The notes beneath the pieces were generated by a model. It was not told the DNA's origin, did no database searches, and saw only the letters and a list, made by a program, of their open reading frames with translations. A DNA stretch of 61,129 nucleotides from positions 1-61,129 of IMG/VR virus record IMGVR_UViG_3300022752_004478. One strand, 5' to 3'. Source of the DNA: a virus. Below are positions 57,390-60,707 of this stretch, in pieces (position 1 is the first letter of the stretch; each line of letters starts with the position of its first letter). The position numbers and the translations under genes are program-made.

Positions 57390-58332
57390 CTTGCTTGAAT
57401 CTGTATTTGGATATCCAAAGAACAATGCATCAACACAAATACAATTTAATTGTCCTGAATGCGCTAGATTAAATTATGGGATACCTGATAACAAATACAA
57501 TCTTGAAGTAAACATATCCTTAAACAATAAAGGTAAATACAATAAGGTTTGTAAATGTTGGAAATGTGGTATTTCAGGACCACTTTTTTTTGTGTTTAAA
57601 AAATATGCTACAAAGTCACAAATAGCAGAATTTTTAAAATATGAAAACGAGCCAATTATTTTTTCTCAAATAAAGAAATTTAAAATATTTAGATTACCAA
57701 AAGAATTTATATCTTTTAAAGATATGGATAAAAATAATCCATTACATTTAGAAGCTTATCAATATTTAAAAAATAGGAAAGTTGCAGATGCAATAATAAA
57801 AAAAGATAATCTTGGATTTTGCCTTGATGGTTATTATAAAGATAGAATTATAATTCCATCATACGATTTAGATAATAAATTAAACTTTTTTGTAACAAGA
57901 ACATTTAAAGATGATTATTATAAATATAAATTACCAAAAGCAGATAAAAATGAAATTATTTTTAATGAAAAAAATATAAATTGGAATTCAACTGTTTATA
58001 TTGTTGAGGCATATTTTGAATATACAACAATCCCAATAAATACAATCATATTGTTGGGTAAATCTTTACAAGATAATATATTATCAAAATTAATTAAATA
58101 CAAACCAAATGTTGTTATTATGTTAAATCCCGATGCGATTGAAAAAAGACATGATTTCAACCATTCAAAAAAACCCAATTCTTCTTTAGAAATTCAGGAA
58201 CGATTATTGAGTTTAGGTTTAACAAATGTTAAAATACAAACATATGAAAATGACGATGATTTAAATGAAAATATGAAAAAATATGATAAAAATTATATAT
58301 TTGAATTGATGAAAAAAAAATTAGAACAATAA
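57379..58332 (+). CDS. gp61: DNA primase, gp61/DnaG-like
   Basis: A 317-residue protein from ATG 57379; an upstream TTG lies within the sigma gene. Residues 25-63 are a zinc ribbon (C25-P-E-C28 and C60-W-K-C63). The remainder is a TOPRIM-type primase: YLKNRKVADAIIKKDNLGFC, YYKDRIIIPSYD, VYIVEAYFEY with the TOPRIM Glu, and VVIMLNPDAIEKRHD with the acidic pair. The TOPRIM motifs are less regular than in DnaG. It should make RNA primers with the helicase encoded at 21512, though the two genes are far apart. Confidence 0.78.
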   Translation: MIYNLLESVFGYPKNNASTQIQFNCPECARLNYGIPDNKYNLEVNISLNNKGKYNKVCKCWKCGISGPLFFVFKKYATKSQIAEFLKYENEPIIFSQIKKFKIFRLPKEFISFKDMDKNNPLHLEAYQYLKNRKVADAIIKKDNLGFCLDGYYKDRIIIPSYDLDNKLNFFVTRTFKDDYYKYKLPKADKNEIIFNEKNINWNSTVYIVEAYFEYTTIPINTIILLGKSLQDNILSKLIKYKPNVVIMLNPDAIEKRHDFNHSKKPNSSLEIQERLLSLGLTNVKIQTYENDDDLNENMKKYDKNYIFELMKKKLEQ

Positions 58333-58358
58333 AAAAAAAAAATAAATGGAAAAATTAA

Positions 58359-58886: not shown

Positions 58887-60707
58887 ATGAGTGTGAATAG
58901 AAAAATAAAAAAATACAATACGGAAGAAAGTGAGGTTGATAAAATAAAAGAAATTAAAAATCAAATCAGAAAAAAGATTGGAAAGCCATACTTAAAAATC
59001 AATCCAAAAAATGAAAACCAAGAAAAATTCATAAAAGAAATATTGGAAAATGATTCAATGTATGTTATTGCAACAGGGGTGGCAGGATGTGGTAAAGCCC
59101 AACCGCTAACATCTAAAGTCTTAACAATTAATGGATGGAAATTATTTAAGGATATAACACTATCTGATATTGTTATTACACCCGATAATAAAACTTCTGA
59201 AATTATTGGTATATATCCACAAGGTATTAAAGATATATATGAAATAACATTTGAGGATGGTAGAAAAGTTGAATGTTGTAAAGAACATCTTTGGAAAGTT
59301 TTTGAATATAATAAAAATGTAAAACATAAAGAAAATTATGATGGTTATAAAATTCTTTCTTTAGAAGAAATTCTTAAAAAAGAAAATAGACTTAAAGCAG
59401 GAAGATTGTATATACCTTTAGTTGAACCAATTAGTTTATTAACTAATGAAATAGAATTACCAATAGACCCATATTTATTAGGTATTTTGATAGGGGATGG
59501 TTGTTTAGGCAATAATCAAGTATCTTTTAGTAGTGCTGATGATTTTATTATTGAAAAAATAAAAAATATAGTTAACGATAAATTACATGTAATCACAAAA
59601 ATTAATAAATACGATTATAAAATTATAAAAAATAAAGAATTATTAAAACATAATGATTCTAATTATTTTATGGATAAAATAAGAGAATTAAAATTAGATG
59701 TTAATTCAGACAAAAAATTTATACCTGAAATATATAAAAATTTATCATTAAACGATAAAAAAGAATTATTAAAAGGTTTATTTGATAGTGATGGAACAAT
59801 TGGTAAAAATGGTAATATTAGCTACTCAACAGTATCAAAACAATTAGCAATTGATATACAAGATATTTTATGGTCAATGGGTTGTATTTGTAAAATAGTA
59901 GAAACTCAAAAATATTATAAAGATAAAAATGGTGATAAAAAAGCAGGTAAGTTATGTTATAGGCTTAATGTTAGAACAAATAAACATAGTGATTTATTTC
60001 ATTTACCTAGAAAATTAGAAAGAATACCATTAAATTATCAATATAATAATTTAAAATTAAGAATAAAAGAAATTAATTTAAAATCTTCCGAAGAAGCTGT
60101 TTGTATTTCAATAAAAAATGAAAATAAATTGTATATAACTGATAATTATATTGTCACACATAATACATTTATCGCTTTAATTCAAGCAATAAACTTATTA
60201 CTTTCAGATGATAATAACTACACAAAAATTAGAATATTTAAACCTTTAAAACAACTACAACATGAAGATGTTGGAACACTCCCCGGAGGTGTTGAAGAAA
60301 AATTAGAATATGTATTAATGTCTTATTCAATGCAATTAAATAAACTAATTTCTCCAATTGCTTTAGAAATATTATTTAAAGAAAAAATCATTGAAATTAT
60401 ACCAATGGGTAATTTAAGAGGTTTATCTCTTGATAACATTAATATTTTTGATGAATTCCAAAATGTATCAATTGATAACAGTGAAACTGTATTAACACGT
60501 TTAGAAGAAGGTGGTAAAATGATTATTATTGGAGATATTCGTCAAAGAGATTTTAAAGATAAAAACGATAATGGATTAATGTTTTTAACTGAACATTTTA
60601 AAGATTTTGATGAACACATAAAAGTTGTCGAATTTGTTGATTCAGACTGCGTAAGAAGCCCTTTAATCCAAAAAATAACCAAACTATTTGATGATAAAAA
60701 AAGATAA
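58887..60707 (+). CDS. phoH: PhoH-like ATPase interrupted by a class 3 intein
   Basis: A 606-residue precursor. Residues 1-70 and 427-606 together make a 250-residue PhoH-like ATPase, the phage size. Walker A is GVAGCGK joined to T427 (TFIALIQAINLL), and RIFKPLKQLQHEDVGTLPGG, NINIFDEFQN (Walker B) and IIIGDIRQRDF follow, as in PhoH. Residues 71-426 are an intein (separate entry). After splicing the P-loop reads GCGKTFIA. PhoH-like proteins are RNA- or DNA-associated ATPases of unclear phage role and are common marker genes of marine phages. Confidence 0.9.
   Translation: MSVNRKIKKYNTEESEVDKIKEIKNQIRKKIGKPYLKINPKNENQEKFIKEILENDSMYVIATGVAGCGKAQPLTSKVLTINGWKLFKDITLSDIVITPDNKTSEIIGIYPQGIKDIYEITFEDGRKVECCKEHLWKVFEYNKNVKHKENYDGYKILSLEEILKKENRLKAGRLYIPLVEPISLLTNEIELPIDPYLLGILIGDGCLGNNQVSFSSADDFIIEKIKNIVNDKLHVITKINKYDYKIIKNKELLKHNDSNYFMDKIRELKLDVNSDKKFIPEIYKNLSLNDKKELLKGLFDSDGTIGKNGNISYSTVSKQLAIDIQDILWSMGCICKIVETQKYYKDKNGDKKAGKLCYRLNVRTNKHSDLFHLPRKLERIPLNYQYNNLKLRIKEINLKSSEEAVCISIKNENKLYITDNYIVTHNTFIALIQAINLLLSDDNNYTKIRIFKPLKQLQHEDVGTLPGGVEEKLEYVLMSYSMQLNKLISPIALEILFKEKIIEIIPMGNLRGLSLDNINIFDEFQNVSIDNSETVLTRLEEGGKMIIIGDIRQRDFKDKNDNGLMFLTEHFKDFDEHIKVVEFVDSDCVRSPLIQKITKLFDDKKR
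59097..60164 (+). other. Class 3 intein with LAGLIDADG endonuclease (356 aa)
   Basis: It begins with A71 (not Cys/Ser), block A AQPLTSKVLTINGW. Block B ECCKEHLWKVF has H134 (B:10) and W136 (B:12). Block F AVCISI has C406 (F:4). Block G YIVTHN has T424 (G:5), then H425-N426, and T427 is +1. This Trp/Cys/Thr set with a non-nucleophilic first residue is the hallmark of class 3 inteins, in which C406 is the first nucleophile. The endonuclease motifs are YLLGILIGDG (196-205) and LLKGLFDSDG (294-303), each with its acidic residue, so homing activity is likely intact. Confidence 0.9.

Follow-up and report, generated by a model that had tools for sequence, protein, structure and literature searches.

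What kind of intein interrupts the phoH gene of the virus record IMGVR_UViG_3300022752_004478, does it look functional and mobile, and is PhoH an unusual place to find it? The window, by which we mean the whole stretch of DNA analyzed, spans 61,129 bases with a G+C content of 25.5%. Its gene set is of the tailed-phage kind and includes baseplate and tape-measure matches, a DnaB-like helicase gene, and sigma-factor-like and primase-like genes directly upstream of phoH. The open reading frame (ORF) at 58887-60707 (+) encodes 606 aa and matches the Pfam family PhoH (PF02562, E 1.4e-37) over residues 412-601, as well as LAGLIDADG_3 (E 2.2e-12) and PF14528 (E 7e-13). A sequence-only reading of this locus had proposed a class 3 intein with two LAGLIDADG motifs and had remarked that PhoH seemed an unusual host for that class.

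The excised product, its length, and its site could be fixed because intein-free relatives were available for comparison, rather than by motif guessing. The search for such alleles, which the sequence-only reading had suggested, was successful: nine close IMG/VR relatives encode PhoH without an insert, namely L004 (= L045), L005 (= L051), and seven further loci. These genes encode a continuous PhoH of 250-252 aa, reading GAGKTF or GCGKTF. The intein interrupts the PhoH P-loop after GCGK, directly before T, and its boundaries are exact (Table 1). Its removal leaves a protein of 250 aa (606 - 356), which is identical to the intein-free L004 PhoH at 244 of 250 residues and has a PhoH domain (PF02562) with Walker A and Walker B motifs.

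Table 1. Parts of the phoH ORF and key residues of its intein, in window coordinates (fractions refer to 48 aligned sequences)
Feature	Position	Strand	Remarks
N-extein of PhoH	58887..59096	+	70 aa, P-loop end ...ATGVAGCGK; set by PF02562 and intein-free homologues
Intein, very probably class 3, with LAGLIDADG endonuclease	59097..60164	+	356 aa; boundaries set by intein-free alleles and homologues
Codon of Ala1 (position 1 lacks a nucleophile)	59097..59099	+	Ala in 43/48
His64, block B:10	59286..59288	+	48/48
Trp66, block B:12, W of WCT	59292..59294	+	48/48
LAGLIDADG motif 1, LLGILIGDGC, from intein residue 127 (Asp134)	59475..59504	+	Asp134 in 47/48
LAGLIDADG motif 2, LLKGLFDSDGT, from intein residue 224 (Asp230/Asp232)	59766..59798	+	Asp230 in 48/48
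Cys336, C of WCT at block F:4, presumably the nucleophile and branch point	60102..60104	+	48/48
Thr354 (G:5, T of WCT), His355, Asn356	60156..60164	+	48/48
Thr+1, second nucleophile, doubles as Thr of the PhoH P-loop	60165..60167	+	Empty alleles read GxGKT
C-extein of PhoH	60165..60707	+	180 aa and stop, begins T(+1)FIALIQ; PF02562 match

We follow the published definition and mechanism of class 3 inteins (PMC4031507, PMC7664689, PMC7891396). The residues that had been named in support of this class are all in place: ORF residue 71, which is residue 1 of the intein, is Ala instead of the Cys or Ser of a class 1 start, and W136, C406, and T424 in ORF numbering are W66, C336, and T354 of the intein, with H425, N426, and T427 being H355, N356, and the +1 Thr. 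Among 48 aligned sequences from the window and IMG/VR, H64, W66, C336, T354, H355, and N356 are all invariant. A second set of 23 aligned sequences (the window, the IMG/VR locus L003, and phage records) has invariant H64, C336, T354, H355, and N356 and a nearly invariant W66, which is Ile in two Lactococcus phages. Because W, C, and T are kept in all 48 homologues, and because relatives of the intein occur in 474 phage records (E<1e-5), this arrangement is not a matter of chance.

An intein of class 1 or class 2 could in principle have lost its first nucleophile by chance, in which case the direct attack on the N-terminal junction would come from Thr+1, and Cys336 would be incidental. Ala1 is the state of class 2 inteins too, and in a phmmer search gp41-1, a class 1 intein, came out as the closest individual sequence of a solved intein. 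We nevertheless regard this explanation as very unlikely. Class 2 inteins known to date are Mja KlbA orthologues that use Cys+1 (PMC4031507), whereas the window intein has Thr at +1 and PhoH as its host. At position F:4, most class 1 references have Asp, as opposed to Cys in 48 of 48 members of the window's family, and a profile of that family found the solved class 3 DnaB inteins 6rix (E 8e-27) and 6bs8 (E 2e-26) as its top matches in the PDB.

A phylogenetic tree also argues against chance loss. Since the answer on class must not be built into the tree, it was computed from the splicing blocks only, after masking of position 1 and the three columns of the triad, leaving 115 columns. A 100/99 branch has the class 3 rows and gp41-1 on one side and the nine remaining class 1 rows on the other. 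The window intein lies inside the starred clade of nine P-loop class 3 inteins (97/92), where its clade mates are inteins of phage helicases, a terminase, PhoH, and plasmid TraD. The placement within class 1 that would have overturned the original proposal was rejected, both with phage ribonucleotide reductase class 1 inteins (AU p 0.0006) and with mycobacterial class 1 inteins (AU p 2e-5). The test did not reject a basal placement in which the window intein falls immediately outside the rest of the class 3 rows (AU p 0.14), and the deep order within class 3 is weak because the tree rests on 115 columns. The class 3 assignment is backed by the residues, the invariance of the triad, the masked tree with its common descent with known class 3 inteins, and the profile match to solved ones, and we conclude that the P-loop of this phage PhoH ATPase is very probably interrupted by a class 3 intein that is full-length and mobile.

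An AlphaFold2 model built from 48 sequences (mean pLDDT 91.9, pTM 0.91) predicts a complete HINT and LAGLIDADG protein. In VIA-align comparisons, the whole model resembles PI-SceI, an intein with an endonuclease (Z 27.9, 327-344 residues). The splicing part alone resembles the class 3 mini-intein Msm DnaBi1 (Z 19.3, rmsd 1.6, 123 residues) as well as Mch DnaB1 (Z 18.4), with gp41-1 tied at 18.6; such likeness of fold does not by itself tell the class of an intein. Both LAGLIDADG motifs that had been noted were found with their acidic residues, of which Asp134 and Asp230 are conserved, and the two helices that carry them sit in a predicted PI-SceI-like fold, as in LAGLIDADG homing endonucleases.

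By analogy with class 3 inteins that have been studied, we infer how the window intein might splice. Cys336, forming a triad with His64 and Thr354, would attack the N-terminal scissile bond after Lys70, and the N-extein would be held on Cys336 as a branched thioester before moving to Thr+1. Asn356 would then cyclize with the assistance of His355, and an O-N acyl shift would yield a seamless 250-aa PhoH with its GCGKT P-loop restored. Because the intein interrupts the P-loop, PhoH would presumably be unable to bind ATP, and thus be inactive, until spliced. The LAGLIDADG domain, in turn, would cleave phoH alleles that lack the intein, at their P-loop codons, and the intein would be copied in when the break is repaired.

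Another idea is that the intein is a regulatory switch of PhoH rather than a plain selfish element, with splicing awaiting a signal such as redox state through a reversible disulfide between Cys336 and Cys61 of block B. This idea would add to the class 3 assignment, not replace it. Cys61 (window 59277-59279, B:7) precedes the catalytic His by three residues, and 36 of the 48 aligned sequences have Cys there (CxxH); the stress toggle of M. smegmatis DnaBi1 is a disulfide between the catalytic Cys and another Cys (PMC6195587). However, PhoH does not need the intein, because most relatives of the window PhoH lack it, and the conservation of Cys61 is also compatible with a structural or catalytic role. 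We therefore consider a regulatory role unlikely. The more specific proposal for the CxxH phage clade, in which the Cys61-Cys336 disulfide restrains splicing and PhoH ATP binding is turned on only in a reducing cytoplasm or after stress, is quite unlikely in our judgment. As a separate observation, B:7 is Thr in class 1 and Asp in the mycobacterial DnaB inteins of class 3, versus mostly Cys in the window's family.

L003 is the only very close second carrier, with an intein at the identical site that is 96% identical to that of the window. Between these two inteins dN/dS is 0.088, which points to purifying selection, as expected for a working protein. The intein could instead have decayed, with splicing and homing dead and PhoH a pseudogene, and we hold this to be extremely improbable: besides the low dN/dS, the frame is open, all catalytic residues are present, the acidic residues of the endonuclease and the block D Lys207 are kept in the alignment, and the full AlphaFold model is confident.

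The same pair of carriers bears on the history of the class 3 intein. Their dS is 0.18 in the intein, compared with 0.82 in the N-extein, 0.63 in the C-extein, and 0.60 in the upstream gene, and third-position contrasts gave Fisher p values of 6e-8 and 9e-6. Because the intein is less diverged than the exteins and the upstream gene, it must have entered at least one of the two genes well after the phages parted; judged by these divergences, it is younger in phoH than the divergence of the gene itself. The intein thus looks recently mobile, and homing is likely. The intein-free and intein-carrying alleles of very closely related phages offer a ready-made before-and-after comparison for homing and splicing.

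The intein-free sister L004 belongs to a phage that is otherwise about 98% identical to that of the window. Six of the seven differences in the N-extein fall within the final 21 nt before the junction, and 14 of 51 differences fall within 81 nt at the insertion site, a cluster that suggests imported flanks, i.e. co-conversion. We rejected this cluster as proof of co-conversion, since a comparable one lies 750-840 nt upstream, at the end of the primase-like gene: 23 differences in about 91 nt (58254-58344), which is likely a recombination tract. Because of this second cluster, general recombination, which is common here, could explain the cluster at the insertion site as well.

The expectation that PhoH would be an unusual host for class 3 is contradicted by hosts in mycobacteria, Vibrio phage 1.161.O, and IMG/VR. 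Class 3 inteins in PhoH of M. fortuitum and M. xenopi had already been aligned (PMC6195587, Fig. 6a). Among the best matches in 148 genomes of the genus to which M. leprae belongs, thirteen loci carry full class 3 inteins, their hosts called PhoH by the stretch around the site, the flank length, and the literature rather than by a Pfam scan. Their insertion site reads VAPLxYMRGR↓TL(N/S)D (arrows mark the insertion point), and the corresponding stretch before Walker B in the solved PhoH 3b85 is AYMRGRTLNDAFVILDEAQN. The host in Vibrio phage 1.161.O is PhoH (PF02562, E 6.7e-31) with the intein at the P-loop site. Among the 80 best IMG/VR relatives, 8 have PhoH hosts at the P-loop site (by our own PhoH HMM, E below 1e-50); L003, already known as a carrier, is counted among them under the handle L219. 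Most of the other loci are P-loop proteins of other kinds, split at the identical GK↓T or GK↓S point.

PhoH is therefore a repeated, not an exceptional, host of class 3 inteins. A single PhoH-specific lineage that unites the phage and mycobacterial PhoH inteins was considered and rejected, as the sites differ and the tree does not allow one clade (AU p 0.002); class 3 inteins have thus invaded PhoH at least twice, at two different sites. This makes PhoH, whose gene is common in phages and whose function is under debate, a recurrent landing place for class 3 inteins, and the habitat of the class appears to be P-loop NTPases generally rather than a few named proteins. A count in 2020 gave 1701 class 3 inteins, 82.5% of them with LAGLIDADG motifs (PMC7891396). 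In the literature searched, whose coverage is incomplete and from which we claim no absence, we found no account of class 3 inteins that interrupt PhoH at its P-loop, and nothing turned up on inteins in connection with phosphate starvation and metagenomes.

Several known systems resemble the window intein in different respects. Those of Aeromonas phages AerS_266 and D6 (L007/L006) are 37.7-39% identical to it over the whole intein and share the GK↓T insertion, the HLW of block B, Cys at F:4, and the terminal THN; AerS_266 likewise begins AQPL, whereas D6 has Leu at position 1, and the host of both is a helicase-like ATPase instead of PhoH. The intein of Vibrio phage 1.161.O (L008), annotated merely as a hedgehog/hint domain protein, has a PhoH host, the P-loop site GSGK↓T, and the full WCT set, but it is about 38-41% identical and its host is a PIN-PhoH fusion. 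The mycobacterial PhoH inteins (M. fortuitum and M. xenopi in PMC6195587; here L163-L175) share the host, the AQP start, WCT, and full length (347-359 aa in the loci read); unlike the window intein, they interrupt PhoH immediately ahead of Walker B, at MRGR↓TLND, and form a separate clade of the tree. Msm DnaBi1 and Mch DnaB1 (6bs8, 6rix) are class 3 inteins with a P-loop GK↓S insertion and the common splicing fold, yet they are mini-inteins without an endonuclease and have DxxH in block B where the window intein has CxxH.

Further related inteins were observed along the way. The Lactococcus phages LW81 (L014:892-1953) and 949 (L015:901-1947) have inteins that are 81% identical to each other and lie in an AAA-type ATPase. 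They were rejected as PhoH cases: the LW81 host, annotated as PhoH, matches AAA_24 and not PhoH. Both inteins have Cys at F:4 and Thr at G:5 with Ile in place of Trp; at position 1, LW81 has Cys and 949 has Ala. In the tree they group with gp41-1 (90/91), which itself lands on the class 3 side although it is class 1; class 3 as one clade excluding gp41-1 was not rejected (AU p 0.29). By their residues and placement, the two inteins look like intermediates between class 1 and class 3, which is relevant to the published argument that class 1 does not readily give rise to class 3. Inteins with Cys1 (CQPYSS or CQPL) that retain Trp, Cys F:4, and Thr, so that both possible first nucleophiles are present, occur in IMG/VR at L246:2001-3134, L248, L235, L255, L257, and L260-L263.

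In L003, the PhoH-intein carrier, a second intein (L003:8795-9919) interrupts the large subunit of ribonucleotide reductase. It reads Cys1 ... Phe-Asn↓Cys, has Cys at F:4 and Thr at G:5, and lacks the Trp. Outside phages, the IncC plasmid pKAZ5 (L217) has an intein of class 3 type with an endonuclease in the P-loop of TraD, a conjugation ATPase (GSGK↓T), and similar sites occur in plasmids of Enterobacter, Citrobacter, and Klebsiella. Lastly, the intein-free sister has, adjoining its ribonucleotide reductase gene, a gene at L004:4846-5667 (-) whose protein has a start (MYKIYALIDPRTKTICYIGQTKNK) like that of GIY-YIG endonucleases.
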